Below, one piece after another: positions 746 to 36,505 of a stretch of DNA of 39,473 bases. The stretch is taken from assembly GCA_028715605.1 (NCBI GenBank), contig JAQURM010000008.1, positions 1-39,473 of the forward strand. The letters run 5' to 3'. This DNA is from Desulfovibrionales bacterium (lineage in GTDB: Bacteria > Desulfobacterota > QYQD01). The translations under genes were made by a program, and so were the position numbers. Positions within the stretch are counted from its first letter, which is position 1. Every line of letters begins with the position of its first letter. Below the pieces are notes generated by a model that saw only the letters and a program-made list of their open reading frames with translations, was not told where the DNA came from and did not search any database.

Positions 746-3700
746 CTAAACCTTTGTCACATTGACCATGAAGGCCTTGTATTCAGGCGTCCCTGTATTC
801 GCGTCTCCCGCAGTGGGAGTAAGCAGATTGGCACTGTCACCACAGTCCTCCGGGAACAGCCAGCCATAGTTGTAGGTCATTCCAACCAGGTGGATGGTCT
901 GTCCGCCGCAGCTGAAGGGGCGCAGCCGGGTCGTTACCATTGCAACACAGGGCAGAGAACCACGGGGTGACTCAACCTTCACCTTATCCCCGTTCTTGAT
1001 GCCTCTGAGCTGTGCCAGTTCTTCGCTGATTTCCACATATACCTGAGGCTGCGCCTCGGTAAGCCAGGACTGCCACCTGGTATTGCCGCCGGTACACCAA
1101 TGTTCCGTGCTGGAATATGTGGTCATCACAAAGGGATACCTGGGATCGCAGCCGGAAAATTTATCGCATGTGCCTGTAAATATCTTCATGACAGGGTTTT
1201 TCAGTTGAGATGACAGCGGATTTTTCTCCATCGGACCTTCAAGAGGTTCATAATGTTCGGGGAATGGTCCATCACTCAGTGCCGGGCCAAAGAGAGAGGA
1301 CACGCCGTCCGGCTTCATGATGAACGGGTATTTCCCTTTTTCGAGATCTGCCATTGGAGGCCATGGGCCGTCGGGAACGTCACCCACCCATTTTCCATCC
1401 ACCCAGGCCAGTAAAGGCCTCTTGGGATTGTAAGGCTTGCCATTCAGGTCCACTGAAGCGCGATTGTAGATAATGCGCCTGTTGACAGGCCATGCCCATG
1501 CCCACTGCGGATAGAGGCCGAGACCAGTTGGGTCGTCCTTTTTTCTGCGTTGCATGAGGTTTGTGCCATCCTGGGCAAATGACCCGGACATGAGCCAATT
1601 ACCTGATGAGGTCTTGCCGTCTGCCTGAAGCAGGGCAAAGGAAGGTACACAATCACCCTTTTTGTACGTCTTGTCGCCGATAGTGACGTCTTCAAGAAAA
1701 TAGCCGTTGGTGACCTTGGCTACCTCTACCACATCAAACCGGCCTTTCTCGTCGGTATAATCCCACTTCAGGTTCAAAATCGGATCAGGGAAGGCGCCTT
1801 TTTCCTTTTTATAAAGTTCCTTAAGCTTCGAAACGATCCGGATTATGATATCGCCGGTATAGATTGCGTCTCCCGGTGCCTTTGCCGCCTCGTATTTCCA
1901 TGAGACCAGGCGTCCGCTGTTGGTCTGGCTTCCCTGCTTCTCTACGGAAGCCGCTCCTGGAAGCAGGAAGACCTCTGTATTGATCTTTTTGGGGTCCACT
2001 CCGGGCCCCTTCCAGAAAGAGGCTGTTTCGTTGTTATACATATTGACATGCACCATCCAATCCAGGTTGGAAAATGCCTGACGTACTTTATTGGCATTGG
2101 GAAGGCTGCAGGCAGGATTCTGGGCGACACAGATAAACCCTTTGATCGACTTTTCAAACATCCTGTCAATCATATTCAGGATAGTGCAGTCCTGTCCGTC
2201 ATCGAGCTTGGGCACCCATAAATAGCCGAAGTCATTTTCCTTCTTTGCGTTGTCACCGTACCAGGCCTTGAGAAGACTTACCGTATATTTGGGGTAGTTC
2301 TGCCACCAGTTGGCCGAGCGGGGGTCGCTGGTTTTCGGGGTATTTTTCTTAATGTAATCGTCCAGGGTAGGCAGCGATGCCACCGGCGCTTTAAGATACC
2401 CAGGCAGGATATGAGACAATATGGCATGGTCTGTAGAGCCTTGCACGTTCGGTTCTCCGCGGAGAGCATTGACTCCCCCGCCGCAGATGCCCATGTTTCC
2501 AAGCAAAAGCTGTATCATACAAAGGGTCCTGATATTCTGTACTCCCGAAGTGTGCTGTGTTTGGCCTAAGGCATACATAACGGTTCCGGCCTTGTCGGGC
2601 ACACCGGTGGATGAGTACAGTTCATAGACCGTTTGCAGGTCTTTTACAGGTGTCCCAGTAATCTTTGAGACCGTATCCAGATCATAACGGGAATAATGCT
2701 TCTTCAAAAGCTGGAAAACGCAGCGGGGATCTTTCAGTGTAGGGTCTTTTTCAGGAATACCGTTAGCGTCCTTTTTTATCGTCCAGGTCGCTTTGTCATA
2801 TTTTCTCGTGCCGGAATCATACCCGGAGAAAAGACCGTCATTGAAATCGAACTTATCATTGACCAGGAACGGTGCATTCGTGTAGTTTACGACATAGTCC
2901 TTGAAATATTTTTCGTTTTCGATAATATACTTGATCATCCCGCCCAGGAAGGCAATGTCTGTACCCGAACGCAGGGGGACATAAACATCTGCTTTTGAGG
3001 AAGTCCTTGTAAAGCGCGGGTCAACATGAATGAGCTTACCTCCCCTCTCCTTGGCTCTCATAACCCATTTGAATGAGATGGGATGATTTTCTGCAGCATT
3101 GCACCCCTGAATGAGAACAACATCGCTGTGCTGAAGATCTATCCAGTGGTTGGTCATTGCGCCACGTCCGAACGACTCTCCCAGAGCCGCTACAGTAGGC
3201 GCGTGTCAGACCCGGGCCTGATGATCGATATAGACCAGTCCCATGGACCGGGCCATGGCGGTAATGAGCCAACACTCTTCATTGTCAATATTTGAACTTC
3301 CTATATGAGCGATGTTTTCAACGCGATTCACCACATGGCCCTTGTTGTTCTTAGTGATAAATCCTGCATCGCGTGTTGCTTTGATGTTTTTAGCAATCCG
3401 CGTGATTGCCCAATCCCAGGACTTCTCCTGCCACTTGTCGCTTTTGGGTGCACGATAAAGCACCTTGGTCAGACGATGCTCGTTAGCGGCCGTCGTCTGA
3501 TAACTACCTGCGCCTTTGGCGCACAGCGTCCCCTCATTGATGGGATGCTCGGGGTCGCCCTCGATGTTGATAATCTTCCCTGTTGCAGCGTCCGTGCTGC
3601 AGACCAGCCCGCACCCGACTCCACAGTAGCAACAAATGGATGTAGTCTGTTTGGCACTCTTCACCTTATCGATCTTTTTCATTTCTTCGGCATAGGCTAT

Positions 3701-3793
3701 CACCGGACTCAGGTCGATCCCGAGAGATGAAAGCGCCAACCCCCCGGCAAGGGTGCCTGATCCAACTAAAAAATCGCGCCGTGTTACTTTCAT
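746..3793 (-). CDS. Selenocysteine-containing, Tat-exported formate dehydrogenase catalytic subunit (FdnG-like)
   Basis: Oxidises formate to CO2 at a Mo or W bis-MGD centre, expected in the periplasm. The 1015-residue reading frame is continuous only if TGA at 3206-3208 (codon 196) is read as selenocysteine: the residues before it end DHQARV and those after it read HAPTVAALGESFGRG, the conserved active-site context of formate dehydrogenases. The N-terminus has a twin-arginine signal (TRRDFLVG, residues 4-11) followed by a hydrophobic stretch. A [4Fe-4S] site follows (C54-x2-C57-x3-C61 and C91 with K93). The length fits the 1000-residue FdnG/FdoG class. The start has a strong GGAGG site 5 bases upstream of ATG. 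It is followed 12 bases later by the FdnH-like gene. Treating the two halves as separate genes would lose the active site, so one gene is the better call. Confidence 0.95.
3159..3202 (-). other. SECIS-like hairpin for selenocysteine insertion
   Basis: Right after the UGA codon (3206-3208) the mRNA can fold into an outer 5-bp stem (GCGCC at 3198-3202 with GGCGC at 3159-3163) and an inner 7-bp stem (CGGCUCU at 3183-3189 with AGAGUCG at 3173-3179) closing a G-rich loop at 3180-3182. Bacterial SECIS elements lie within the coding region just 3' of the UGA and are bound by SelB, which fits this position. The pairing is seen by eye; SelB binding is inferred. Confidence 0.7.
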
Positions 3794-3870
3794 GTCTTCC
3801 TCCTTTCAAAAAAGGTTAGAGAATGACTAATAAAAATCTTTTCTTTTAGAAAAAACTCTCCTCCTTCACT

Positions 3871-4542
3871 TTATGTCTGCTTATAGCCTTCATGAGATCT
3901 AATGTATTTGTCTTCATGTGCATTTCCCTCCGGATATTCAGGGATAATGTAGGGCGAACTCCCCTGGCACGCGAAACAGATGCTGCCATCCTTCAAAGGA
4001 TAAGCTTCCTCACATGACGGACAAATTACAATCTTGCCCTTATCGCGTTTTTTGAGAAATTCAGGCTTAATCTGAACAGGGCATACCCCGCATATTTCTA
4101 CACCGGCCGTCTTGATCTGCGAGAGAAGATGTTCGTGGTTCTGTTCAGTCCTTGACTTGAGCTTCAAGAACCAGGCTTTTATCTCCGGCCATTGTTCTAA
4201 TTTGCCGGGGTCAAGAAACACACGGAATCCATTACCATGGTATTTATCATAGAGGCTTAAAGCAAAACGGCCAAGGTTAATAATCTTGAGCCAGCCGTTT
4301 CCGGCCGTGCAAGGTGTGAGCAGTTGAACGGCATCAGGAAGGCAGGCCGGAGTTTCACATATAGCATCAAAAAGTACCCCTTCGGGAATTTGTATCCGGG
4401 CCAGATGCACCATGAACCCTCCGATGATGACCCCCGGTGCTGCATGGCCATGAAAAGGCTGAATACGATGAATATACTCTTCTATGTCAAAAGCAGAAGT
4501 TTTCCCTTGCATCGTTTCTAAGGATACTAACGTCTTATCCAC
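3871..4542 (-). CDS. FmdE-family protein with C-terminal zinc ribbon
   Basis: The N-terminal half resembles the FmdE domain (PF02663 type) named after a subunit of molybdenum formylmethanofuran dehydrogenase: a central FHGHAAPGVIIGGFM motif (about residues 30-44) and a conserved CET motif (about 63-65). The C-terminal third has cysteine pairs CGVC, CPSC and CFAC (about residues 152-193), a likely zinc ribbon. The family is found near Mo/W formate dehydrogenases, but its biochemical role in bacteria is not settled; a role with the metal or cofactor of FdnG is only inferred from position, 77 bases upstream of fdnG on the same strand. The start is uncertain: GTG at 4542 has no clear ribosome site, and an internal ATG at 4512 is an alternative. 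A shortened paralogue lies just upstream (4651-4845). Confidence 0.75.
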   Translation of the reverse strand: MDKTLVSLETMQGKTSAFDIEEYIHRIQPFHGHAAPGVIIGGFMVHLARIQIPEGVLFDAICETPACLPDAVQLLTPCTAGNGWLKIINLGRFALSLYDKYHGNGFRVFLDPGKLEQWPEIKAWFLKLKSRTEQNHEHLLSQIKTAGVEICGVCPVQIKPEFLKKRDKGKIVICPSCEEAYPLKDGSICFACQGSSPYIIPEYPEGNAHEDKYIRSHEGYKQT

Positions 4543-4593
4543 CTCACAGAAATAATCTGTCTTAAGAATGTGTAAAAAGCACCTAGTCTATTA

Positions 4594-4623
4594 ACATTAC
4601 GGTTACATGAGATAATAAGTCAA
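4594..4623 (-). promoter_or_regulatory. Candidate sigma-70 promoter for fmdE-fdnGH
   Basis: Minus-strand TTGACT (4618-4623), an 18-base spacer and TAATGT (4594-4599), in an AT-rich stretch between the truncated and full FmdE genes. It would give fmdE-fdnG-fdnH their own transcription start, separate from the fdhA operon. The -10 match is only fair. Confidence 0.35.
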
Positions 4624-4650
4624 ATTCATTATTTTCATTGAAAAAATGAA

Positions 4651-4845
4651 TTATTTTAATTTGTTACTATTTATGGACAGACAGAATCGCGTTTCACAGA
4701 GAGCCTCGAAAAGGACTCCATCCGGGAGGCCGTTTCGGGCCAACTCGACCATGAAACCGCCGATGAGCATGCCCGGGGCGATAGTCCCATGAAAGCCCCG
4801 CACCGCCTCACAATACCCCTCGAATGTTAACGTTCCGATTCGCAT
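4651..4845 (-). pseudogene. Truncated FmdE-domain fragment
   Basis: This 64-codon frame starts at ATG 4843-4845 with an AGGAAG site about 7 bases upstream. It reads RGFHGTIAPGMLIGGFMVEL and then DGVLFEALCET, closely parallel to residues 30-65 of the FmdE protein at 3871-4542. It then leaves the family after RFCL and stops in AT-rich sequence, so the second half of the FmdE domain and the zinc ribbon are missing. The frame stays open upstream to 4968, where it overlaps the preceding gene, but those residues do not look like FmdE. The simplest view is a tandem duplicate that lost its 3' part. A short functional protein cannot be ruled out. Confidence 0.6.
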
Positions 4846-4949
4846 ATATTTCTTCCTGATAAGATCGTCCACCGTTATCCGTTCACTGTTGCCCGTAAGG
4901 ACATGGGGAAACTCTTTTCGGTGTACGATGAGCTGTAAGCAGTGAAAAA

Positions 4950-7283
4950 CTACGTAGGCGGCGTCCATTCCACCGGCACGAACAAGCCCTTGCCGCGGGG
5001 AAAATCACCGGCCCGGTGGAGAACTGGCGTGCCCGGGTGGTCCTCAGTGGGGCATGGCCACTGAAGACCGTTTCCCTCGATGCGGCGGTATTTGATACCG
5101 GCCAGTATGGGGACGAGCACTGAGACCTCATTGTCCCAGATCTCCTGCGCGCTTGCCGATGCCCATTCTTGGCCCATCCGCCGGGCGATCTCACGAAATA
5201 TCCACCAGTTGGGCCGTGCGAGCCCCGGCGGCTCCTTGCCCTTCCGGACCCGGTTTACCCGCCGCTCGGTGCTCGTAAAGGTCCCGTCATCCTCACACCA
5301 GGCCGCCGACGGCAGGACTACATGGGCGTAGCGGTTCATCTCGGTCGGGAAAATGTCCTGGCAGACGAGAAACTCTGCGGACGCCAGGCACTGATAGACG
5401 TGTCGATAATCGAACCGGCCTTTAGCCGGGTTTTCTCCGAAGCAGTAGAACGCCTTGACCGCCCCATCCGCCAAGGCGTCCAGCATGTCGGAAAACCTTA
5501 GCCCGGGTTTCGCGGGAAGCCCGCGTATACCCCAAAATCGCGAAAACTTTTCCCGGGCCGCAGGATCGGTCACCTTCTGGTAGCCGGGGAGTACATCAGG
5601 CAAGGCCCCCATGTCGCAGGCGCCCTGCGCGTTGTTCCGGACCCGCAAAGGATTGACACCGCCACACTCCACCCCGATGTTCCCGAGCAGCATCTGAAGA
5701 CTGGCGATGGATACCTCCTTATTGCGTGCCGCAGTGCCCCCGGCAAGGCTCGGGGCATAACACACCATGGCCGGTCTCACTGCCGCCAAACGGCACGCGA
5801 TCTGCCGGATCAAATTCCGGCTCACGCCGCAGATCCTGGCAGTCCGTTCGGGCGAGTAAGCCTTGACTAGCGCTTTGAGTTCCTCGAACCCTTCGCAGTG
5901 ACGCTCGACGAACTCTTTATCATAGATATTCTCCCTTAGGATAACGTGCATAAGACCATTTAAAAATGCCACTTCGGTGCCCGGACGGATCGGGGCAATC
6001 AAGGCGGCATGGTCGCAGAGAAGGTGTTTAACATGGTCGATCACGATGAGTTCGGCACCAAGCCGCACTGCATTCCTCACAAAAGTGGCCGCTATCGGGT
6101 GGGTCTCGGTCATGTCGATACCGATGCAAACCAGCATTCGTGCGTTCGCGAACTCCCCGAGGGAATTTGTCATCGCCCCGGGGTTACCGAAAGCCAGGGA
6201 CAGGCCGTTGGCGGCGTCGGTACGGCCGGTATGCCCGCAAAGGTCGATGTTATTCGTCCCGAATACCGCCCGGAAGAGCTTCTGCAAGTTGTAAGAGTCT
6301 TCATTGAGAGCCCGGGCCCAGCTCAAGCCGGCTACGGAGTCGGGACCGTGCAGGCGAATAATATCCCGAAAGCGCGCGGCCACAAGGTCCAGGACTTCGT
6401 CCCAGGATGCCGGCCGGAACTGCTCGTTTTCCTTGATCAGCGGCGTGGTAAGCCGTTCCATACCATAGACGAAGTCATAGGCAAAACGGCCCTTGACACA
6501 CAACCGGCCTATATTGGGGGCAGCGTCGGTCACAGCCGTGACTTTAGTGATTTGCCCATCCTTCACATGGACCCACTGCTGGCAGCCTACGCCGCAGTAC
6601 GGGCAGGTGGTTCTTACCTTTTGGGTTTCCCAGGCCCGACCGAGCCCCCTCGCCTTTTTTTCGGTCAGGGCGCCCACCGGGCAGGCCTCGACGCACTGCC
6701 CGCAGGATACACACTTAGCCGGGTCGGGGAGCGGGAACCAGCCGTGCGGCCCGGCCCGGTCTTCCCGACGGCCGAACGGGTAAGCGATGGCGCCGTTAAC
6801 CTGAATCTCCCCGCAGGCGGCCACACACCGGCCGCACAGGACACACTTGCTATAGTCCCGGATAATGAAAGCCTCCTCCGGGGCCGACGGGGAGGCATCA
6901 GCCGGCTGCCGGACCGTAGTAGGTTCCACTCCGTACTGGTAGGCCAAATCCTGGAGGCGGCAGTCGCCGCTAGCCTCACAGGCAAGACAGCTATGCCGCC
7001 CCGCAGCCAGGAGCAGTTCCAGGGTCTGACGGCGGGAGCGAACCACCCGCTCCGTTTCGGTCCACACCTCCATGTCTTCACGCGCGAGTGTGCTACAAGC
7101 CGGCAGAAGCCGGTCAACCCCCTTCACCTCCACCACGCAGATCCGGCACACATTGGAGTGGTCCGCCTCTTTCCAGTGGCACAAGGTCGGGATTAAGATA
7201 CCGGCGGTCTGAGCGACCTCCAGTATTGTCTCCCCCGGGGAAAAGGAAATCTTACGATTATTTAGCAGCATCTGGGAATGCAT
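4950..7283 (-). CDS. FdhA/NuoG-like iron-sulfur protein without the formate dehydrogenase active-site Cys-His and without the last cofactor domain
   Basis: The domain order is that of cytoplasmic formate dehydrogenase alpha subunits. Numbering here is from the upstream GTG at 7298: a [2Fe-2S] domain (C40, C51, C54, C68), a His-Cys [4Fe-4S] site (H102, C104, C107, C113), two ferredoxin clusters (C152-C162, C196-C206), a molybdopterin-family [4Fe-4S] site (C232, C235, C239, C267) and a large molybdopterin domain. At the place where FdhA has N-C-A-R-V-C-H, this protein reads L-C-G-H-T-G-R, so the Mo/W-ligating Cys is Gly358 and the catalytic His is Arg359. It ends at VPVEWTPPT, where the paralogue at 8925-11651 goes on for about 130 more residues of cofactor-binding domain. 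It probably carries electrons rather than oxidising formate. ATG at 7281-7283 has a GGAG site; GTG at 7298 is the longer alternative. Confidence 0.85.
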   Translation of the reverse strand: MHSQMLLNNRKISFSPGETILEVAQTAGILIPTLCHWKEADHSNVCRICVVEVKGVDRLLPACSTLAREDMEVWTETERVVRSRRQTLELLLAAGRHSCLACEASGDCRLQDLAYQYGVEPTTVRQPADASPSAPEEAFIIRDYSKCVLCGRCVAACGEIQVNGAIAYPFGRREDRAGPHGWFPLPDPAKCVSCGQCVEACPVGALTEKKARGLGRAWETQKVRTTCPYCGVGCQQWVHVKDGQITKVTAVTDAAPNIGRLCVKGRFAYDFVYGMERLTTPLIKENEQFRPASWDEVLDLVAARFRDIIRLHGPDSVAGLSWARALNEDSYNLQKLFRAVFGTNNIDLCGHTGRTDAANGLSLAFGNPGAMTNSLGEFANARMLVCIGIDMTETHPIAATFVRNAVRLGAELIVIDHVKHLLCDHAALIAPIRPGTEVAFLNGLMHVILRENIYDKEFVERHCEGFEELKALVKAYSPERTARICGVSRNLIRQIACRLAAVRPAMVCYAPSLAGGTAARNKEVSIASLQMLLGNIGVECGGVNPLRVRNNAQGACDMGALPDVLPGYQKVTDPAAREKFSRFWGIRGLPAKPGLRFSDMLDALADGAVKAFYCFGENPAKGRFDYRHVYQCLASAEFLVCQDIFPTEMNRYAHVVLPSAAWCEDDGTFTSTERRVNRVRKGKEPPGLARPNWWIFREIARRMGQEWASASAQEIWDNEVSVLVPILAGIKYRRIEGNGLQWPCPTEDHPGTPVLHRAGDFPRGKGLFVPVEWTPPT

Positions 7284-7307: not shown

Positions 7308-8846
7308 TTAGGCGAAAACCGCAAGGGCGATTCGGTAGCAGCGCAGACAGCGGCTTGCTTCTTTCCTCGCTTGTGTGGGAGTAAGTTCACCCTTGAGCTT
7401 TGAGAGGCGTTGCCCCCGTTTGGCCGGCCCGGCCGCGGAGGAATTGGACAGTGCCTCTATGGGAGCATCCCCTTTAGCGGTCTCCTGGTTCAGGGCAGAG
7501 ATGAAGAGGTCGAGCCGATCTTGTTCGTCAGGACTACAGTCTCCCGTTTCCAGGTATTGAATGATGGATTTAGCGGCCCGGCGGCCGGCTGCCAGGGCAG
7601 CTACTATCATACTCTGCCCGGTCACGCAGTCACCGCCGCAGAAAATATAGGGTACTGCGGACTGTAGTGTGACCGGATCCACCACCAAGGTGTTGTTGGA
7701 GGCCACCTTGATTCCCGCCTGAGCGAACCGTTCGATCTTGCATTTTCCGGTTGAGAATTTAGGGGCTCCAACACTGATAAAAACTGCGAGGTAACCTTCG
7801 TTAAGGAGTTCTTGTATGGTGATGTCTTCACCTACTGTCACGCCGTAGCGGATATCAGATCCGAGCTTTTCAACCAAGTCCGCTTCGCGCTGCAGGATGT
7901 CCCGCGGAAGACGGGAAGCGGGAATCCTCTCGGCAGCCGTACCGCCGGGCTGAAATGCAGCTTCAAAAATCGTGCTTCGATAGCCGTTGACTCCCAGGTA
8001 GTAGGCACAGGAAAGGCCTGCCGGTCCGGCGCCCACGATGGCTACCTTTTCCTCCTGTACAGGCCGGAAATGGTGAGCGGCGCTGTTCCCGGGTGTGATT
8101 TCACGGTCGGCCACATAGCGGTGGAAGGTGAGAACCGGAGGGCTGTGCGTCTGTACATATCTCGCTGCTGCCTCACGGTCCGCCGCGTAACGCTTGAGGT
8201 TCTTGATGGCGACAGATTCATCTATAACGCCTCGCCGGCATTTCCGCTCGCAGTTTCGGAAGCAAATCCGGCCTATTGTACCCGGCATGAAGCAGGTATT
8301 CCGAACGAGATCGAGGGCCTCATCCCAACGATCCACCCGGATTTTTTCCACATACCCCGGGATATCTACGTGGGCGGGGCAGGCGGTTATGCAGGGGGCG
8401 GTTACCGACCAGACGTAGCTCCCTCGGGGGAGAGGCTTCGCGTTGCGCACCGCGGCAAGAAATTCATTACGGAAGTACTCCAGTGCGTCCAGAAGCGGGC
8501 GGGGCGCGGTCTGGCCGATATCGCAGCGGGCAGATTCCCGGACATAGCGAGCCAGGATCTCCAGTCTGTCGAGGTCATGCTCGGCCCCTCGACCCGCGCA
8601 GATTCTCTCCAGGATATCAGCCACCTCCGCAGTGCCAAGCCGGCAGGGAAAACACTGGCCGCAGGATTCTGCTCTGGCCCGGGCCGCATATTCCCGGGCC
8701 ATGTCCACGACGTCCACCGAGTCGTCACAAATGATCAGCCCATCCCAACCCATGAATGCCCGCAGCCCCAGATCAGGGGGAAAGGACGGCGGCGAGCTTG
8801 CACCCTTGGGATCGCTTACGCCCCACGTCGAAAAAACTGCGGTCAT
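7308..8846 (-). CDS. NuoF C-terminal cluster domain fused to a shortened GltD/NfnB-like flavoprotein
   Basis: Residues about 35-130 match the tail of NuoF/HydB-type subunits, including ESCGQCFPCRLG (C62, C65, C68) and the fourth ligand at C108 (RCDIGQTAP). The FMN/NADH-binding part of NuoF that normally precedes this is absent. Residues about 150-440 match GltD-type proteins: cysteines of two N-terminal clusters (C152, C156, C185, C195, C199, C203), the FAD dinucleotide motif VGAGPAG (271-277), and the closing FAD motif YIFCGGDCVTG (400-410). In GltD/NfnB a NAD(P)-binding Rossmann domain of roughly 150 residues sits between these two halves. Here the text runs from ISVGAPKF straight into a short linker and VDPVTLQ, so that domain is missing. 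The C-terminus keeps a CLRC pair. ATG at 8844-8846 has an AAGGAG site. It lies between two FdhA-like genes, so it is probably their electron-transfer partner. Confidence 0.8.
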   Translation of the reverse strand: MTAVFSTWGVSDPKGASSPPSFPPDLGLRAFMGWDGLIICDDSVDVVDMAREYAARARAESCGQCFPCRLGTAEVADILERICAGRGAEHDLDRLEILARYVRESARCDIGQTAPRPLLDALEYFRNEFLAAVRNAKPLPRGSYVWSVTAPCITACPAHVDIPGYVEKIRVDRWDEALDLVRNTCFMPGTIGRICFRNCERKCRRGVIDESVAIKNLKRYAADREAAARYVQTHSPPVLTFHRYVADREITPGNSAAHHFRPVQEEKVAIVGAGPAGLSCAYYLGVNGYRSTIFEAAFQPGGTAAERIPASRLPRDILQREADLVEKLGSDIRYGVTVGEDITIQELLNEGYLAVFISVGAPKFSTGKCKIERFAQAGIKVASNNTLVVDPVTLQSAVPYIFCGGDCVTGQSMIVAALAAGRRAAKSIIQYLETGDCSPDEQDRLDLFISALNQETAKGDAPIEALSNSSAAGPAKRGQRLSKLKGELTPTQARKEASRCLRCYRIALAVFA

Positions 8847-8924: not shown

Positions 8925-11651
8925 TCACTTTAGGCACTCTCCTGACGCCAGTTTCTCCACCTTCACCGCGCACACCTTATACTCCGGACATTTGGCAACC
9001 GAATCAAAGGTGTTATTAGTCAGCAGATTGGTGAGCACATCGCGATAGTGGAAAGACATCCAGACCGTGCCTATGGGCGACCGGTCGGTCACCCTGGCCT
9101 TCACCTTGACCTCGCCCCGGCGGGAAGCGACCCTGACGGTTTCCCCGTCCAGGACGTTCAGGCGGAAGGCGTCGTGCGGATTGATCTCAACCTGCTCATG
9201 GTTCCATACCTTGAAAATCCCGGTGCGCCGGGTCATTGAGCCATTGTTGTAGTGTTCGCGGCGACGGCCGGTGCACAGGATAAAACCATAATCCGCATCC
9301 GGCCATTCACTCGGTTCTTTGAAGTCGATCGGCGTAAAGATCGCCAGACCGTCGACATGGGAGAACTTCTCGGTATACATGGTCGAGGTGCCCTTAGATC
9401 CCGGCGGGCAGGGCCACTGTATGCCCTTTTCCCGCAGACCCTCATACGTGCAGCCGCCCATGAAGTGCTCCGCTGCTTGCGTCATCTCCTCGAAAATCTC
9501 CGAGGCATGGCCGTACCTGGGGCCGTTATAGCCCATGCGCTCCATAACTTCGCAGAGAATCTGCCAGTTTTCCTTGCCGGAAAGAGGAGGAACGGCCTGG
9601 TTTACGAGCTGGATGCGCCGTTCGCCGTTGACGTAAGTTCCATTCTGCTCGGCAAAGCTGGAAGCAGGCAGGATGACATGCGCGAATCGGGTGGTCTCGG
9701 TGTGAAACATCTCCTGAACCACCAGAAAATCAAGCGCCTCCAGGTTCTTACGGATGTGCGTGATATGCGGATCGGTATGCGCCGGGTCTTCGCCCAGGAT
9801 GTAGAAGCCGCGGATCTCTTTGGAAACCATTTTCTCCAGCATCTCCGTGGATTTCAGCCCCGGCCTGTCCGGCAACTTTGCTCCCCAGGCGGCCTCGAAC
9901 TTGGCCCGCGCCTTTGGGTCGTCCACCTTCTGGTAGCCGATGTAGATGTTCGGCAGGGCACCCATATCGCAGGCCCCCTGTACGTTGTTCTGGCCGCGCA
10001 GCACGTTTATCCCGGTGGACACGCGTCCCACGCTGTCTGTCAGAAGGGCCAGATGCGCCAGACTCATAACCCCTTCGGTGCCGAAGGCGTGTTCCGTGAT
10101 GCCCAGACTGTAGTAAATCATCAGGTTCCTGGCCCGGCCTATCATCCCGGCCGCCTCGACTATCGCCCCGGCGGGGACGCCGGTGATCCTGGCCGTGTAT
10201 TCCGGGGTGAACTTTCTGAGGTTCTCGGCAAAAGCTTCAAAACCTCTGGTACGTTTCTCGATGAATTCTTTATTGTGCAATCCGTCTCTTACGATTACGT
10301 GCATTAAGCCGCTGAAGAGGGCCACGTTGGTGCCTGGACGCAGGCCGAGCCAGTGGTCGGCATGTTTTACCAGCTCGATCTTTCGTGGATCCGCCAGAAC
10401 CAGCCGGGCTCCATTTTTTACGGCCCGCTTGATGTTCATGCCGATAATGGGATGGGCCTCGGTAGTGTTGGAGCCGGTAACAAAGAGCACATCGGCCCCG
10501 TCGACCTGATCGAAGGAGTTGGTGGCCGCTCCGGTGCCGAAAACCGCCGACAATCCTGCCACGGTTGGGGCGTGGCAGACCCTGGCGCAGTTATCCACGT
10601 TGTTCGTGCCGAAAACGGCCCGCGCGAGCTTCGTAAGCAGGTAGTTATCCTCGTTGACCGAGCGGGAGCAGGCAAATACCCCCAGACTGTCCGGGCCGTG
10701 CTTCTCCTTGATTTCCATAAACCTGCGGGCGATCAGATCATAGGCCTCGTCCCAGGTAGCGGGCACGAATTGGCCGTTTTTCTTGATCAAAGGAGTCGTG
10801 ATGCGGTCGGGATTGTGGACGAACTCATAGCCGAACCGCCCCTTGACACAGGTGCGCCCCTGATTCACCGGCCCTTCCTTGCACCCGGCTGCCTTGACCA
10901 CCCGATTTGTCTTTGGGTCCACGAACAGATCGATGTTGCATCCGGTGCCGCAGTAGGGGCAGGTCGTTCGAACTTTCTTGAGCTCCCAGTGCCGTCCGAC
11001 ACGCTTTTCGCGTTTGCCGACCAGCGCCCCGGTGGGGCAGACAGCAATACACTGGCCGCAAAGCTCGCACTCCGCCAGAGTATTGTCTTTGTCGTGCGGA
11101 ATGTCGGCCACCGCCGTGAACCCCCTGGTCGGAGAAAATCCGATGGCTCCTCTAATCACTATCTCGTTACAAGTCCGCACACAACGGTTGCACATGATGC
11201 ATTTGTTGCGGTCCCATTCAATCAGCGGATTGTTGTCCTCGATGGAATAGTTGTACTTAGCACGGTCCCAATCGGCCACGACCTCGTCTTTGGTCAGATA
11301 TTTGTAGGCCAGGGCCTCCAGTTCGCAGTCGCCATTCTTGTCGCAGGTCATGCAACTGTTCGGATGATTGGCCAGGAGAATTTTGATACTGTTTCGCCTT
11401 GCGGCCAGGATGTCTTCGTCATCCGTAATGATGCTCATGCCGTCGTACACCCTGGTATTGCACGCTGGGATCAGGCCTGAGGCAGAATCCACCTTTACGA
11501 GGCAAACCCTGCAGGCCCCGTATGGCTTCAAACCGGAATAATGGCAGAGGGTGGGGATGTAGTGCCCTGCCTTTTGGGCCGCCTCAAGCACGGTCTGATT
11601 CTCTAGAGCAGGGACCTTGATTCCGTTGATTGTGATTTGTATCGCGGCCAC
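8925..11651 (-). CDS. fdhA: Cytoplasmic formate dehydrogenase catalytic (alpha) subunit, Cys type, NAD-linked FdhA/FdhF family
   Basis: Formate oxidation at Mo/W bis-MGD with a chain of Fe-S clusters. Counted from the GTG at 11649-11651 the protein has 908 residues. It carries a [2Fe-2S] domain (PTLCHYSGLK, ACRVC, PACNT), a His-Cys cluster (NHPNSCMTCDKNGDC), two ferredoxin clusters (CIMCNRCVRTC, CELCGQCIAVC), the molybdopterin-family cluster (CPYCGTGC with CVKG) and the active site NCARVCHAPTVAGL with Cys359 (codon 10575-10577) and His360. The last domain is complete (GRRREHYNNGSMTRR to the end). The frame extends upstream to a TTG at 11768, but those 39 residues are not family-like and overlap foldable leader sequence. 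The GTG has a GGGGAG site 5 bases upstream. It heads an operon with the genes at 7308 and 4950. Confidence 0.93.
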   Translation of the reverse strand: MAAIQITINGIKVPALENQTVLEAAQKAGHYIPTLCHYSGLKPYGACRVCLVKVDSASGLIPACNTRVYDGMSIITDDEDILAARRNSIKILLANHPNSCMTCDKNGDCELEALAYKYLTKDEVVADWDRAKYNYSIEDNNPLIEWDRNKCIMCNRCVRTCNEIVIRGAIGFSPTRGFTAVADIPHDKDNTLAECELCGQCIAVCPTGALVGKREKRVGRHWELKKVRTTCPYCGTGCNIDLFVDPKTNRVVKAAGCKEGPVNQGRTCVKGRFGYEFVHNPDRITTPLIKKNGQFVPATWDEAYDLIARRFMEIKEKHGPDSLGVFACSRSVNEDNYLLTKLARAVFGTNNVDNCARVCHAPTVAGLSAVFGTGAATNSFDQVDGADVLFVTGSNTTEAHPIIGMNIKRAVKNGARLVLADPRKIELVKHADHWLGLRPGTNVALFSGLMHVIVRDGLHNKEFIEKRTRGFEAFAENLRKFTPEYTARITGVPAGAIVEAAGMIGRARNLMIYYSLGITEHAFGTEGVMSLAHLALLTDSVGRVSTGINVLRGQNNVQGACDMGALPNIYIGYQKVDDPKARAKFEAAWGAKLPDRPGLKSTEMLEKMVSKEIRGFYILGEDPAHTDPHITHIRKNLEALDFLVVQEMFHTETTRFAHVILPASSFAEQNGTYVNGERRIQLVNQAVPPLSGKENWQILCEVMERMGYNGPRYGHASEIFEEMTQAAEHFMGGCTYEGLREKGIQWPCPPGSKGTSTMYTEKFSHVDGLAIFTPIDFKEPSEWPDADYGFILCTGRRREHYNNGSMTRRTGIFKVWNHEQVEINPHDAFRLNVLDGETVRVASRRGEVKVKARVTDRSPIGTVWMSFHYRDVLTNLLTNNTFDSVAKCPEYKVCAVKVEKLASGECLK

Positions 11652-12403: not shown

Positions 12404-12793
12404 CTACTGGCCAGATCGTTTACATCTGCTCCCTTTTCTCCCGGTCTTCTTCACGGTGCGCGAGAGAAGTACCTCCGGCAACAGCCTCGGGCTTGCCTCC
12501 TCAAGAAAAGACTGCGTTTCCCGGCGTAAGGCCTTGTATGCCTGAAGGAGTTTCCTGGCCTCCTCTGTAAGCGACATAACTTTGCGGCTCAGGTCTTGCT
12601 CTACCAGCTTAAAGCCCAACCGCTCTTCAGATGCCCTCAGCCGGCCCCAAGCGGCCCGGTATGACATATTGAGTTTTTTTGCCGCTCCAATCAGAGTGCG
12701 GAATTCTTCGATGGCCTCCAGCAACTCCTCGCGGCCCTTGCCGAAGAGCACTTCACCGTCCTCTTCCAGCCATATTTTGAAATTTATGTTCAT
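12404..12793 (-). CDS. ModE-like winged-helix molybdate-type regulator (DNA-binding domain only)
   Basis: A 129-residue protein with the LysR/ModE N-terminal fold. Residues about 22-80 read RTLIGAAKKLNMSYRAAWGRLRASEERLGFKLVE in two adjoining parts, a helix-turn-helix with the typical MSYRxAW recognition helix and the following wing (KVMSLTEEARKLL). ModE controls molybdenum uptake and molybdoenzyme genes in many bacteria. The C-terminal TOBE/Mop domains that bind molybdate in full ModE are missing; the C-terminus is a short basic tail. Its position upstream of and in line with the fdhA operon suggests it regulates that operon. How it would sense metal without a Mop domain is unclear. Confidence 0.85.
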   Translation of the reverse strand: MNINFKIWLEEDGEVLFGKGREELLEAIEEFRTLIGAAKKLNMSYRAAWGRLRASEERLGFKLVEQDLSRKVMSLTEEARKLLQAYKALRRETQSFLEEASPRLLPEVLLSRTVKKTGRKGSRCKRSGQ

Positions 12794-16695: not shown

Positions 16696-17238
16696 TCATT
16701 CTCTGCCGACATCAATCGGAATCTCCACCGGTGTCGCACCCCAATCCGGCGAATAGATTTCTTTCTCAACATAACGATGAAATGTCGAATACGGCCAGTC
16801 CTTCGGTGCATCTACAATCCGATGCTTTACCGGATTGTAATGGATATAATCACAATGAGCCGAAAAATCCTGATCGTCTCGAATCATGTGTTCCCAAAAA
16901 CGCCTTTGCCACACCATACCTTCTCTATGCTTCTTTCGAGACGGGGTTGGATTCGGGGTGTCCAGCCAACATCGGATCCTCTTGGTAAATTCAGTCTTTA
17001 TCAACGCCCAACGCAATGAATAATCGATGTCTCCATCCGGTAAACGCCAAATGCAGTGCATATGCTCCGGCAGCAAAACCCAGGCTTCAATGATGAAAGG
17101 ATGCGAATTGCGCACCCTTGCGGTGATGTCACGTAACAGTGCTCTCGATTCCTCCAGACAAAGAATCGGCTGTCGTTGGTGCGTAACCACCGTGAAAAAA
17201 TATGTATTCCCCTCCCGTACCCTTCGATAATTCGGCAT
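16696..17238 (-). CDS. REP-associated tyrosine transposase (RAYT, Y1 HUH family)
   Basis: A 180-residue single-strand DNA transposase related to IS200/IS605 TnpA. It reads MPNYRRVREGNTYFFTVVT, the typical RAYT start, and has the metal-binding HUH motif in LPEHMHCIW (about residues 57-65) and the catalytic Tyr in the HCDYIHYNPVKH segment (about residues 128-139). Such proteins cut and join single strands at REP hairpins. Here one REP lies on each side in opposite orientation, making a REP-RAYT-REP unit of about 640 bases. No clear ribosome site precedes the ATG at 17236-17238. It looks intact. Confidence 0.93.
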   Translation of the reverse strand: MPNYRRVREGNTYFFTVVTHQRQPILCLEESRALLRDITARVRNSHPFIIEAWVLLPEHMHCIWRLPDGDIDYSLRWALIKTEFTKRIRCWLDTPNPTPSRKKHREGMVWQRRFWEHMIRDDQDFSAHCDYIHYNPVKHRIVDAPKDWPYSTFHRYVEKEIYSPDWGATPVEIPIDVGRE

Positions 17239-31434: not shown

Positions 31435-32673
31435 CTATCTGGCCGGCGGATTCAAATCCCTTTCATACGGAAATACCGGCAGGTAACGATAGGAAAGAGA
31501 GATAATCAAGGCGCCATAAGCAATTACGGCCAGTGAGGTCATCCATTCCTGCCAGCTCGGGAAGTAGGTATACCACTTGTCAAATGGATACACGGGCATG
31601 GCCAGCGTCTGCACAGTAAAGATAAAGCGGTTAAGAACCACGCCAGTCGAAGCCAGGACACAGGCAAGTGCCAGCCATTTGTCATTCTCGCGCAGGCGGC
31701 GGATGATAAGGATAAGGGCCGGGATTACACCACACAAACCAATCTCTACGAACGGCAGCCACATACCATACTGGTATCCATGGTACTGCTCGGCAAAGGT
31801 AAGCCCTCTAGCCGGGAGGATATGCGTAGCCCAGTAATAGGTATCCACTGTCTTCGCAATAACATAACCGCAAAGCAACCAACCGGCTATCTTGGCCAGG
31901 ACGGAAAGCGACTCCCGCGGCACCAGCCGTTTTTTGGTCACCTTCTGCAAGATCATGGTGACAAGAACGGTGAACGTCGGTCCGGTGGAAATCGCCGAGA
32001 AGATAAAGAGAAAAAATGTCCACGGCCAGACAAAAAAGCCTTCCCGGAAGGCAAAAGGCCGGGCATACATTACACCATACATGCCGCCCAAAGAACCTTG
32101 ATGGAAGAAGGAAAGGAATGTGCCTATGGCCGCAAAGATGGCCATGGCCTCATGAAAATTGTGGCTCAGGGTGTGTGCCACCGGATTAGCGTAGATCTTC
32201 CGGTTTTCGAGGATTAAGGGTACGTACTCAATAGTCAAAACCGTAAAATACAGGGTGATGCAAAAGATAACTTCGGTCAGCATGGAGTGGATGTTGGGGA
32301 ACCAGTAACCGAACCAACCCCGAAGTGGCTGGCCGATATCCAGGGTCAGTATCAATAGAGCGCTGCTGTAACAGATGAACCCGATGATAACGGCAAAATT
32401 AATAAGGGCCTTGAGTTCCTTTACCCGTACCACGTAGGTAAGAAAGCCGCTGAAAAAGGCCCCGGCGCCAAGGGCGATCACCCCTAGATCGACAGTGATC
32501 CAGGCGCCGAACCCGAAGTAATCATTCATATTCGTCTGATTCAGGCCCTTCCAGAGTATCAACAGGGCTGTACTTACGGCAGCGCCCAGCACGAACAACC
32601 AAAGCGCCATCCATGAAAAAAAGGCCCCGGCGCCACATCTTTGAACCCCTTCTGGTATCCATGCACGATCCAT
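31435..32673 (-). CDS. qrcD: Qrc complex membrane subunit QrcD (NrfD/PsrC family)
   Basis: 412 residues with about ten membrane helices and the NrfD-type fold (start GAGAFFSWMALWLFVLG, then WITVDLGVIALGAGAFF, later LSHNFHEAMAIFAAIGTFLSFFHQGSLGG). This subunit carries the menaquinone site of the Qrc complex and receives electrons from QrcC. It is the last gene of the four-gene operon and is followed by the terminator at 31373-31407. GAGGGGAAG lies before the ATG. NrfD homologues occur in many complexes; the call QrcD rests on the gene order. Confidence 0.9.
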   Translation of the reverse strand: MDRAWIPEGVQRCGAGAFFSWMALWLFVLGAAVSTALLILWKGLNQTNMNDYFGFGAWITVDLGVIALGAGAFFSGFLTYVVRVKELKALINFAVIIGFICYSSALLILTLDIGQPLRGWFGYWFPNIHSMLTEVIFCITLYFTVLTIEYVPLILENRKIYANPVAHTLSHNFHEAMAIFAAIGTFLSFFHQGSLGGMYGVMYARPFAFREGFFVWPWTFFLFIFSAISTGPTFTVLVTMILQKVTKKRLVPRESLSVLAKIAGWLLCGYVIAKTVDTYYWATHILPARGLTFAEQYHGYQYGMWLPFVEIGLCGVIPALILIIRRLRENDKWLALACVLASTGVVLNRFIFTVQTLAMPVYPFDKWYTYFPSWQEWMTSLAVIAYGALIISLSYRYLPVFPYERDLNPPAR

Positions 32674-32719
32674 ATACTTCCCCTCTTTTCAACCAAAATT
32701 CAGGATTTAACCCTTGTTT

Positions 32720-33496
32720 TTAAGCCAGACCGCCCGTCCTCTTTCTCCCCAACGCATTATCCGCTAATTCTCTGATCCAGGACTCACTGCTCAAATAATA
32801 GACCTTCGGCTCAGTGCCCAGCTTCTCAAGCAACCGGAAGGCCCCCGGACTCTTAATAAGTTTGGCTACGGCGCTTTCCGGATCTTTCATGTTACCGAAG
32901 GTAATAGCCCCGGTGGGACAGGCCTCGGCGCAGGCGGTCACATATTCGCCATCCTTCAGTTCCTTCCGGCCTTCCACGTAGGCTTTATCTTTGGCCTTTT
33001 GTTGCCGGTGATTGCAAAAGCTGCATTTCTCCACCACACCGCGCATACGCGGGGACATATCCGGGTTCAATAATTTATGCATGCCTTCCGGCCATACCGG
33101 ATCCCACCAGTTGAAATATCGGGCATGGTAAGGGCAGGCCCCAACGCAGTACCGGCAACCTATACATCTGGTGTAAATCTGACTGACAATGCCGGTTAAC
33201 GGATTGTAGTCTGTAGCCATGACCGGGCACACTGAAACGCACGGTGTATGGTGATCGCAGTGCATACAGGGACGCGGGATGAAAGCCACCTTTGTATTTG
33301 GAAACGGCGCGCCGTTCGTCACCTTATAGACCTTCATCCAGGTAACGCTATGGAGTTTATCCGACTCATCTTCCCGAACGTAATGGTTATTCTCTGAAAG
33401 ACAGGCTACCGTACATGTGCCACAGCCCGTACACTTATCCAGGTCAATAACCATGCCGTATTTTTCTTTGCTGGCGACCTCATGATGCTCACTCAT
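32720..33496 (-). CDS. qrcC: Qrc complex iron-sulfur subunit QrcC
   Basis: 258 residues with four ferredoxin-like groups: CTGCGTCTVAC, CMHCDHHTPCVSVCP, CIGCRYCVGACPYHARYF and CSFCNH with ACAEACPTGAI. It links QrcB and the cytochrome to the membrane subunit. The start codon lies 9 bases after the stop of qrcB. No signal peptide is present; it is presumably exported with the Tat-dependent QrcB. Confidence 0.92.
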   Translation of the reverse strand: MSEHHEVASKEKYGMVIDLDKCTGCGTCTVACLSENNHYVREDESDKLHSVTWMKVYKVTNGAPFPNTKVAFIPRPCMHCDHHTPCVSVCPVMATDYNPLTGIVSQIYTRCIGCRYCVGACPYHARYFNWWDPVWPEGMHKLLNPDMSPRMRGVVEKCSFCNHRQQKAKDKAYVEGRKELKDGEYVTACAEACPTGAITFGNMKDPESAVAKLIKSPGAFRLLEKLGTEPKVYYLSSESWIRELADNALGRKRTGGLA

Positions 33497-33505
33497 ATCT
33501 CAACC

Positions 33506-35830
33506 TCATACTTTTATAAGTTTAGCCCGCGTTCCCCACCACACAGCCAGGCCAGTCACCGGGTCTAATTCCGGCTCGAGTACCTCATAGGCATTAACGC
33601 CTTTTCCGGTCAAAAACGGGTCATCGTTGCTATGCCCCAGTCCGAGGGGGATGCCGATAACATCCGGCATCATACCCACATCCATGTGAACACGAACTGA
33701 TAATCTTCCGGCAGGACATTGAACTGTGGCCGCATCCCCTTCAACCAGTCTCAACCGGCCGGCCGTCTCCGGATTTACCCGAACCAAAAGGTCATGTTTC
33801 TGAAGGACAGTGTTATCGATATTTTTTGTTAGATAGGGCAACGTGTCCACTGCCCTGCGATTTGCTATATTGATATTCTCATAAGCCACTAAAAGCACCG
33901 GAAACTCTCGAGAAGCCTTCATCCAGCTTACCGGCTCAAGGCGCGGCGTCCGGCCCTGAGGACTAAATGTAAGCCCCCCGCCTCCAAATATCGGATCCTC
34001 ATACCAGCACTTCCCGGCATTGAGACCTTCCCATAGCTCATCTGACGAGCCGAGCATGGCCACTTCCTGATCTCCGATCCGGCCGCGTCTGGAGGCAAAA
34101 ATCCCACCGACTTTTTCCTTGAGCAAGGCCTCGAAGTTATCCCAGGGAAGCGAGCTACTGACGCTTCCGCCTATGGCCCTGGCCAAAGTCAGAAAGACAT
34201 CTCCGGGGTGCCTGGCCTCAGGCACATTAGCCAGAACGGGCCGGGTCAAACTCATGGAGGCGTAAGGAACCCGGGCCGCCGAAGTTACATCCTCCAGCCT
34301 TTCCAGATAAGAAGCAACCGGCAAAATAATATCTGCCGACCGGGCGGTTTCATTCATACAACTCGTAAGGGCCACCACAAAGGGCACTTTCGCCGCCGCT
34401 TCCTCGAACTTATTGGCCCTGGGCAGCGCATAGCACGGATTGGCTTCGTGGACTACCAGGGCATTAACCGCGCCGCTCTTAAGCGCTGCGGTCAAGTTAT
34501 GCGCCATGCAAACGCCATGTTTAATCTCCCCGCCTTCCCCATCGATCCGTGGCTGGGCGAGTCCCTGCTGGGCTACCGCATCTGTTGCCAGCGCCAGCCA
34601 GGAACTAAACGGCACCTCCCGCTGTACAACCACCCCGCCCTTTGCGCCGATACTGCCCACCAAGGCATTGAGGCTATAGATGCTCATAAATTCCGCCAGG
34701 TTGCCGGACATCACTCCCTGGCCGCGGCCATAGACCGCAACCGCAGGCCTCGTCACGGCAAAGGCACGGGCTGTGTTGGCAATAACTACCGTTGGAATCC
34801 CCGTTATCTCTGAGACTTTACGGGGATCATATTCACTCTCAAGGAGCGCCTTGAATCCTTCAAATCCCTGGCAACGTGCGACGGATGAATGGTCATATAA
34901 CCCTTCCGTAACAATGACGTTGGCCATGCCCAAGGCCAAGGCAGCCTCAGTCCCCGGTTTTACCGCCAGCCATTTATCAGCCTTGGAGGCAGTAATGGAA
35001 CAGTTTGGTTCTATCTGGACCAGGGTATGCTCATTCGCCTCCTGCCATTTTCCAAACACCATCATGTTATGGACCGGGGCGCCCCAGCCCTCCAGCAATG
35101 CCGCCCCAAAGGACAAGACGTACTTGCTGTTTTCCAGGTCATAGGCCAGGTGCCCGCCTGTTCCCTGCATCAATGACAGGCCTACGGTCTCGACATCCTC
35201 CTGTGAGGGCATAGTAATCACGTTGGGAGAACCATAGGCGCGGAAAAACCGGTCTATTAATTCCGCGGTCAGTCCTTTTTTGTTATCCAGGATACAGGCT
35301 ACCGTATGCGAATTGCCAGCTTCCCGTATTTCCCTTAATTTTCCGGTCACTATATTGAGGGCTTCATCCCAGGTAATCTTTTCCCATGCGGCCTCACCTT
35401 CTCCCTTGGGATTTGTCCTCTTAAGCGGAGCGGTTATACGGTTTGTCCCGTATAAGAGCTGCAAGCCGGCCGCTCCCAGCGGGCAAATCCCGCCGCGGTT
35501 TACCGGGTGGTCAGGGTTACCGGCAATCTTAACCGCCCGAAGCGGCACTGCCGGAAGCCTGCGCCTGTCTATAAATTCTTTATGATGCCAGCCCCGCCAC
35601 TCATCGCGGCCCGATTTGTCCTCAACCAGCCGCAGAGTTATACCGCAGCCTCCCGGGCAAAGCCGGCAGGTGCTATGAACAAATGAAGACGGTCCCTTTG
35701 CGGGCTCCGGGGCCCAAAGGTCGGTAAATTTAGCCGATTCATCGAGCAGGTCCCAGGGTATGGGCGTGGCCAAGGTCCCTATCACACCCCCAGCAGCAAA
35801 TTTCAGGAATCCTCTACGATCTAATTTCAT
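33506..35830 (-). CDS. qrcB: Qrc complex molybdopterin-oxidoreductase-like subunit QrcB
   Basis: 774 residues with a Tat signal (DRRGFLKFAAGG, residues 4-15) and one cluster site (CRLCPGGC with GICPLGAAG). The family fold is present to the end (LRLVEGDAATVQCPAGRL, GLGHSNDDPF). Where catalytic members have Cys, Sec or Ser, this protein reads PSQEDVETVGLSLMQG, without any of these in the usual place. That agrees with published QrcB, which holds Fe-S but no molybdenum cofactor. It should act as an electron conduit and scaffold. GAGG lies 8 bases upstream of ATG 35828-35830. Confidence 0.93.
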   Translation of the reverse strand: MKLDRRGFLKFAAGGVIGTLATPIPWDLLDESAKFTDLWAPEPAKGPSSFVHSTCRLCPGGCGITLRLVEDKSGRDEWRGWHHKEFIDRRRLPAVPLRAVKIAGNPDHPVNRGGICPLGAAGLQLLYGTNRITAPLKRTNPKGEGEAAWEKITWDEALNIVTGKLREIREAGNSHTVACILDNKKGLTAELIDRFFRAYGSPNVITMPSQEDVETVGLSLMQGTGGHLAYDLENSKYVLSFGAALLEGWGAPVHNMMVFGKWQEANEHTLVQIEPNCSITASKADKWLAVKPGTEAALALGMANVIVTEGLYDHSSVARCQGFEGFKALLESEYDPRKVSEITGIPTVVIANTARAFAVTRPAVAVYGRGQGVMSGNLAEFMSIYSLNALVGSIGAKGGVVVQREVPFSSWLALATDAVAQQGLAQPRIDGEGGEIKHGVCMAHNLTAALKSGAVNALVVHEANPCYALPRANKFEEAAAKVPFVVALTSCMNETARSADIILPVASYLERLEDVTSAARVPYASMSLTRPVLANVPEARHPGDVFLTLARAIGGSVSSSLPWDNFEALLKEKVGGIFASRRGRIGDQEVAMLGSSDELWEGLNAGKCWYEDPIFGGGGLTFSPQGRTPRLEPVSWMKASREFPVLLVAYENINIANRRAVDTLPYLTKNIDNTVLQKHDLLVRVNPETAGRLRLVEGDAATVQCPAGRLSVRVHMDVGMMPDVIGIPLGLGHSNDDPFLTGKGVNAYEVLEPELDPVTGLAVWWGTRAKLIKV

Positions 35831-35874
35831 AGGTTAACCCTCTTTAAGACTTTTGGTTAAACAAGCTCCCAACA

Positions 35875-36465
35875 TCATTTATGACACACAAAACAGGCAT
35901 TGCTCGTGCCCTTTTTGGCGTGGCAATCCTCACACGCTTCCATGGACATGGTATTCTTGCTGTAGCCTGATATTCTATAGACCTTTACCGGAGGACTGCT
36001 ACTGGATTTGCTCATATCCTCATGGCATGTCGTGCATTCCAGTTGAGCCATTTTGACATGGGCGGCATGGGAAAAGAAGACACACAATGGCTGATAGGAA
36101 TAACTAAGCCACGGTATCTCCTTATTGGGCGTGACATACTGTTCGACCAACTTGGCCTCTTCCGGACTCTCACCCTGCGCCGATGCATGACACTGGATAC
36201 AATTGTCCAGCCTGGGAATGCCGGTAAAACTGCCATCTTCACGGAAAGTATGGCAACCGTCACAGGCTAATCCCGCTCCTTCTACGCCGTGCACCTTATG
36301 GTTGAAATTAATGGGTTGAGGCTTCGAAGACATGACAATAGCCGGATAAAGAAGCCAGCCAACCACAATGGCTACTACAAAACCAGCAGCCAGCATACCT
36401 AACCCCCCGCCGGCCTGCTTGTGTCCCCCTTCTCTTCCTCCAGTCGATACGTGCTCTTCAGACAT
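35875..36465 (-). CDS. qrcA: Qrc complex multihaem cytochrome c subunit QrcA
   Basis: 196 residues. One N-terminal membrane anchor (GMLAAGFVVAIVVGWLLYPAI) is followed by five clear CxxCH haem sites: CDGCH, CIQCH, CTTCH, CEDCH and CFVCH. A sixth position reads CVFFSH, with one Cys only. QrcA takes electrons from periplasmic cytochrome c3, which is reduced by formate dehydrogenases and hydrogenases. ATG at 36463-36465 with GGAGG 10 bases upstream is preferred over a TTG at 36474. It is the first gene of qrcABCD. Confidence 0.92.
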   Translation of the reverse strand: MSEEHVSTGGREGGHKQAGGGLGMLAAGFVVAIVVGWLLYPAIVMSSKPQPINFNHKVHGVEGAGLACDGCHTFREDGSFTGIPRLDNCIQCHASAQGESPEEAKLVEQYVTPNKEIPWLSYSYQPLCVFFSHAAHVKMAQLECTTCHEDMSKSSSSPPVKVYRISGYSKNTMSMEACEDCHAKKGTSNACFVCHK

Positions 36466-36505
36466 CTCGGTCAAGCCTCCCCCTTATACCTTTAGCTGCG
36501 ACTCT

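Follow-up and report, generated by a model that had tools for sequence, protein, structure and literature searches.

FdhX, a truncated formate dehydrogenase-like protein encoded beside SfrB and a catalytic FdhA, is predicted to be a non-catalytic subunit with five iron-sulfur sites

The stretch of DNA analyzed here, 39,473 nucleotides from a Desulfovibrionales bacterium and referred to below as the window, encodes two paralogous proteins resembling the alpha subunit of formate dehydrogenase (FDH), FdhA and FdhX, and their genes are separated by an SfrB-like gene (Table 1). FdhA is intact and FdhX appears to have lost its active site. This raises the question of what a formate dehydrogenase-like protein without an active site does next to an intact one, and whether fdhX encodes a subunit in its own right or is a gene in decay. 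Elsewhere, the window contains an FdnG-type formate dehydrogenase gene split by an in-frame TGA that is probably a selenocysteine codon (746-3793), a ModE-like regulator gene upstream of fdhA (12404-12793; TIGR00637 at 41.6 bits, below the cut-off of 98.5) and, recognized by eye only, a gene for a REP-associated transposase-like protein (16696-17238).

Table 1. Features of the fdhX locus, in coordinates of the window.
Feature	Position	Strand	Details
fdhX	4950..7283	(-)	truncated, predicted non-catalytic formate-dehydrogenase alpha-like subunit, 777 aa
[2Fe-2S] site	7095..7181	(-)	C35, C46, C49, C63 (N1b-like); kept in 7/7 truncated members
His-Cys3 [4Fe-4S] site	6960..6995	(-)	ligands H97, C99, C102, C108; Pfam PF10588
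2 x [4Fe-4S] ferredoxin-like domain	6681..6845	(-)	Cys 147, 150, 153, 157; 191, 194, 197, 201
FDH-type [4Fe-4S] site	6498..6605	(-)	ligands C227, C230, C234, C262; Pfam PF04879
Former active-site loop	6222..6239	(-)	CGHTGR replaces C-A-R-x-(U/C)-H
Eroded GITxH cofactor motif	5727..5750	(-)	residues 512-519
Eroded RGQNNV motif (now RVRNNA)	5628..5645	(-)	residues 547-552
fdhA	8925..11651	(-)	908 aa, GTG start 11651; intact, Cys-His + domain IV; TIGR01591 818 bits
SfrB-like gene	7308..8846	(-)	512 aa; NuoF C-terminal 4Fe-4S domain + GltD-like FAD domain
Fragment of the operon's fmdE	4678..4845	(-)	56 codons, 64% identical to L041 FmdE
Second, intact FmdE-domain gene	3871..4542	(-)	52% identical to L041 FmdE; different third-position GC

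The fdhX reading frame ends in TAG and has no internal stop across its 777 codons. Residues 353-354 of its product are Gly-Arg (GGC-CGT, codons 6227-6222), and the equivalent residues of the FdhA paralogue are Cys359-His360 (TGC-CAC, 10577-10572). A preliminary description of the locus had reported this replacement, and re-reading the codons showed it to be correct. The loss is wider than first noted: the GITEH (512-523) and RGQNN (547-552) motifs, among others, are also altered. The Fdh-alpha profile TIGR01591 matches FdhX with 577 bits over 552 of its 672 positions, under the cut-off of 666, as compared with 818 bits for FdhA. Without the Cys/Sec-His pair FdhX does not qualify as a catalytic formate dehydrogenase alpha subunit, and the earlier proposal that it is unlikely to oxidize formate is well supported at the level of sequence.

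All 19 cluster cysteines are retained in FdhX together with one histidine, which corresponds to one [2Fe-2S] and four [4Fe-4S] sites. The same 19 cysteines and the histidine are present in each of the seven truncated proteins described below, and the claim that the ligands of five clusters had all been kept holds ligand by ligand. As for the C-terminal end, Pfam identifies Fer2_4, NADH-G_4Fe-4S_3, a Fer4 pair, Molybdop_Fe4S4 and Molybdopterin in both FdhX and FdhA, and Molydop_binding (PF01568; domain IV) in FdhA only (residues 790-895). Most full-length relatives extend about 110-140 residues beyond the end of FdhX. The domain assignments and the lengths of the relatives bear out the view that FdhX stops about 130 residues early, before the final molybdopterin-binding domain. 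A tblastn search of positions 3001-5100 in all frames for a leftover of domain IV gave nothing convincing outside fdhX itself; a possible frameshifted remnant past the stop, a 40-residue stretch in the frame of the open reading frame at 4651-4968, scored 22.7 and was rejected (shuffled sequences, 19.0 +/- 2.1; 17 of 300 as high). In molybdoenzymes, domain IV is reported to cap the cofactor (PMC5123574), and hence its absence from FdhX argues against a bound cofactor. Judged by sequence, FdhX has lost the metal ligand and catalytic pair, further cofactor motifs and domain IV, and has kept the five iron-sulfur sites.

The AlphaFold model of FdhX is a confident formate dehydrogenase fold (mean pLDDT 87.7), in which the pLDDT drops below 50 in runs only within the two active-site loops, at residues 352-357 and 513-515. 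Among solved structures it comes closest to FDH alpha subunits (TM by query up to 0.93), and mycobacterial complex I NuoG, AmHydA and StnC are found among the lower-ranked matches.

A scan of a genome collection covering 84,980 species yielded many homologues that are 51-60% identical to FdhX, full length (extending about 120-140 residues past its end) and equipped with Sec/Cys-His, and these constitute the catalytic branch. Two Nitrospirota matches were atypical, being 757-758 residues long, ending at FdhX residue 772 and having the active-site loop deleted. Among 296 Nitrospirota genomes searched, five carry such a truncated fdhX orthologue (757-758 residues with the loop deleted, 60-62% identical at the protein level), and these are five of the six genomes that represent the order concerned in that set. 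The preliminary description had also suggested looking for the same loss in Desulfobacterota, the phylum of the window. When 395 genomes of this phylum were searched with three queries, taking the best two candidates per genome, truncated members were found only in the window's own genome (G000) and in G019, where the gene again accompanies SfrB. The G019 protein, the sixth relative, has 778 residues and the motif RGRACLAPQ, in which the Cys stays at the metal position and the His has become Leu. Thus, the loss of the metal ligand stands for the window copy, but it is not a clade-wide property. In total there are seven truncated members from two phyla, all cut at the same linker; about 735 genomes of the two phyla and one collection scan were covered, and seven is a lower bound because the phylum scans scored the best two or three candidates per genome.

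The gene order is also shared. The four Nitrospirota contigs that are long enough have fdhA, a gene for an SfrB-like NuoF-C/GltD fusion (633-636 residues), fdhX, fmdE and fdhD, in this order; fdhD was named by eye from its sequence and has a tblastn match in all four, and further along lie genes that, when read by eye, look like a transport cluster of the molybdate type. The fifth contig stops after fdhX, with fdhA, SfrB and fdhX in order. The window has the matching order fdhA-SfrB-fdhX-fmdE fragment-fmdE2, and its FdhA is 79-80% identical to that of the Nitrospirota operon. G019 has the SfrB-fdhX pair and no adjoining fmdE. Hence an SfrB-like gene adjoins fdhX, as in SfrAB-type pairs, and this gene is complete in Nitrospirota and G019 and domain-less in the window. 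The operon's fdhA and fdhX are absent from all four congeners of the window's organism, a pattern suggestive of horizontal transfer or of several losses. We found no literature on exactly such an arrangement of a truncated FDH-like gene, SfrB and a catalytic fdhA. As a separate observation, relatives of Smithella (L043, L048 and L058) have tandem Sec formate dehydrogenase alpha genes of the CARLUHS and then the CARTUHA type; in L048 and L058 these are followed after about 3 kb by fmdE.

A careful phylogeny of 38 rows places the seven truncated proteins in one clade (96/95) inside the Sec-FDH branch, with FdhX as sister to the Nitrospirota set (100/100). Full-length NuoG-like proteins that lack the Cys, many of them encoded near SfrB, fall elsewhere in the tree, which indicates that catalysis was lost separately in the FdhX lineage. 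A further truncated protein without domain IV, that of L091, carries a fused NuoE-like domain (PF01257) and is encoded near a NuoF-GltD gene. In a quick tree it joins the clade (SH-aLRT 100), but its branch is very long (1.17); for this reason we excluded it from the careful phylogeny and do not regard it as a member. At its locus (L091:3229-11330), Desulfobacterales rnf-like genes are followed by the truncated FDH-like/NuoE fusion and a 1017-residue NuoF-GltD fusion, possibly a Stn-like enzyme.

To what extent are the truncated proteins constrained? As invariant we took positions with a conservation of 95% or more across 115 catalytic homologues (42 in the cluster region, 94 in the Mo fold). 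The truncated members keep 93-98% of the former and 72-80% of the latter, and in a leave-one-out control four catalytic relatives keep 99-100%. Many of the Mo-fold losses lie at residues 349-360, 390-395, 416-418, 512-523 and 547-552, which we take, from knowledge of the family, to be the active-site loop and cofactor motifs. Furthermore, the Nitrospirota fdhX copies, the only ones to which these values apply, have dN/dS ratios of 0.13-0.15, indicating purifying selection; the ratios of their neighbors are 0.03-0.085 (fdhA) and 0.06-0.105 (SfrB), so that fdhX is constrained, although less than they are. With its open frame and these values for its orthologues, fdhX does not have the marks of a pseudogene. 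The preliminary description had reasoned that, if the close homologues were all intact, simple decay would be the explanation. The nearest relatives of fdhX are truncated in the same way, have likewise lost the active site and show the same gene order, and the intact homologues form a separate, catalytic branch, which on balance favors the reading given there. We conclude that fdhX is not a case of simple decay, because its nearest relatives share both losses and gene order and are under purifying selection.

Two lesions next to fdhX had been overlooked. Firstly, the NAD(P)H-binding domain of the window's SfrB-like protein has been removed by a deletion that is in frame relative to six orthologues, with the junction near 7751. 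The protein matches positions 2-50 of the 291 of the Pyr_redox_2 profile, as compared with 2-291 for L041 (Nitrospirota), and about 146 residues of the G395 (Nitrospirota) protein are missing, including the GGGNVAMD motif; the FAD motifs and the C-terminal CxxC are retained. A structure model of this domain-less SfrB, built on an alignment of 8 sequences, has a pLDDT of 60. Secondly, fmdE is broken. The third-position GC of its fragment (0.66) is nearer to that of fdhX (0.72) than is that of the intact FmdE gene (0.46). These lesions are specific to the window genome among those compared and could reflect decay, repurposing or an assembly error; the loss of the SfrB domain and the fmdE fragment imply that the operon may be decaying or being repurposed in this genome.

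Several known systems resemble FdhX in part. Like NuoG, the cluster wire of complex I (75-kDa subunit), which has no Moco (PMC5123574), FdhX combines an N-terminal set of 2Fe-2S, His-Cys3 and 2 x 4Fe-4S sites with an FDH-like fold, and it has the iron-sulfur domain set of NuoG without a Moco site. However, fdhX lies in an FDH operon and not in a nuo operon, scores 265 bits against TIGR01973 (cut-off 470), and is much closer to Sec-FDH (up to 60%). Like StnC of the Nfn-Bfu type and AmHydA (NiFe-HydABCSL), it has an inactive FDH-like part with clusters that would feed a flavin module, the FdhF domain of StnC being catalytically inactive (PMC10482914). The GltD-like NADPH domain of StnC is a further likeness, but the SfrB partner of FdhX is encoded by a separate gene; moreover, the fdhX operon has no BfuBC core, and StnC and AmHydA belong to another FDH branch (17-23% identity in the fold search). 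The Type 3 Bfu formate dehydrogenase (Gottschalkia acidurici) likewise pairs a cluster subunit with a separate catalytic FDH subunit that houses the pterin (PMC9304861), but the flavin partner of FdhX is SfrB-like, not BfuB/BfuC. As in Geobacter SfrAB, an NADPH oxidoreductase, and in other pairs of SfrB with Cys-less NuoG-like proteins, an SfrB-like GltD/NuoF-C fusion adjoins an FDH-like subunit without the Cys; for one hydrogenase, the proposed NADPH partner is an SfrB-like subunit (PMC3543383). Unlike FdhX, the Cys-less proteins sampled near SfrB (e.g., L092, L101, L105 and L108) keep a C-terminal extension of domain IV length, and they sit in other clades, in a comparison that did not include Geobacter SfrA itself. 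In a Syntrophaceae complex I operon (L106:5957-10622) an SfrB-like gene adjoins a Cys-less NuoG, and no NuoE or NuoF is found in the stretch read. Finally, the window has genes, recognized by eye, for a QrcA-D-like menaquinone reductase typical of sulfate reducers (31435-36474), of which QrcB (33506-35830) is, as is predicted for FdhX, a non-catalytic member of the molybdopterin family; it differs in belonging to a menaquinone reductase complex and in being distant in sequence (29% identity).

Based on this, we think it probable that FdhX is a non-catalytic, cluster-bearing subunit derived from a Sec formate dehydrogenase and acts as an electron wire between SfrB and FdhA. FdhX would dock SfrB via its NuoG-like N-terminal part, and electrons would pass between the flavin/4Fe-4S domain of SfrB and the FdhX clusters, and from there to or from FdhA. 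In Nitrospirota, where a complete SfrB and FdhA are encoded in the operon, the complex would be an NAD(P)H-linked formate dehydrogenase, and the SfrB-fdhX pair of G019 may form an SfrAB-like complex. The NuoG-like wire put forward in the preliminary description thus remains the best functional reading, given the cluster retention, the operon and the clade, but it has a serious competitor in a structural role. FdhA itself possesses a complete set of cluster domains and might contact SfrB with no need of FdhX; the domain-less SfrB, the fmdE fragment, the congeners without the operon, the Cys of G019 and the off-path clusters of StnC also count against a wire.

The structural role would be that of a scaffold, in which FdhX holds the FdhA-SfrB assembly together and its clusters serve folding or oligomerization, carrying little or no current. 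It deserves attention because FDH-like clusters of StnC serve assembly: the FdhF-like clusters C1/C2 lie off the electron path and are required for formation of the tetramer (PMC10482914). Cluster N7 of complex I is similarly off path and needed for stability (PMC5123574), and the presence of clusters in FdhA itself fits this role. However, no member has lost any of the five sites, among them the N1b-like and His-Cys3 sites, which lie on path in homologues. Such full retention seems excessive for a scaffold, and we consider this role unlikely, if clearly worth retaining. Another possibility is that the operon is on its way out in the window genome and that fdhX is merely not yet broken. The 56-codon remnant of fmdE, the four congeners without the operon, and an SfrB that has lost a whole domain and evolves slightly faster (51% versus 55% identity to G019) are in line with this, but fdhX is open throughout, with a still strong third-position GC, and is closer to its Sec relatives than the Nitrospirota copies are (58.7% versus 52%), and the SfrB deletion is in frame and spares the CxxC; such decay is therefore improbable in our view. 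The BfuA/HydA homology of FdhX (AmHydA 7t2r) and the NuoE fusion of L091 adjoining a NuoF-GltD gene could suggest that FdhX serves as the BfuA-type input subunit of an electron-bifurcating complex whose other genes lie elsewhere. We find this very doubtful, since the operon shows no NuoE or complete NuoF (FMN/NADH part) in the window, at the Nitrospirota loci or in G019. Least credible of all is that FdhX still binds molybdopterin and catalyzes another reaction: domains I-III are intact and confidently modeled and G019 keeps the metal-position Cys, but the cap domain is gone, GITEH and RGQNN are eroded and the Nitrospirota copies have deleted the loop altogether.

Returning to FdhX as an electron wire, its lack of a formate site and the lack of an NAD(P)H site in SfrB, with clusters and FAD motifs kept in place, would allow a clusters-plus-flavin relay in the window's organism. 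Formate electrons from FdhA might then reach a protein acceptor instead of nicotinamide, although we regard this as rather unlikely.

Non-catalytic FDH-like cluster subunits are already known, namely NuoG, StnC and AmHydA. New in the FdhX lineage are an origin of its own from Sec-FDH, accompanied by the loss of domain IV, the pairing with SfrB beside a catalytic FdhA, and the staged loss, in which G019 has the Cys without the His, the window copy has Gly-Arg, and the Nitrospirota copies have the loop deleted. Similarity-based annotation would label genes of this type as formate dehydrogenases. In the FdhX lineage, the step presumed to lie behind NuoG would have been taken again independently, a step by which a formate dehydrogenase drops its metal site and becomes a cluster subunit. 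With catalytic Sec relatives at about 60% identity, a staged loss and FdhA in the same operon, both the order of the losses (His, Cys, loop, domain IV) and the minimal requirements of a wire may be put to the test.
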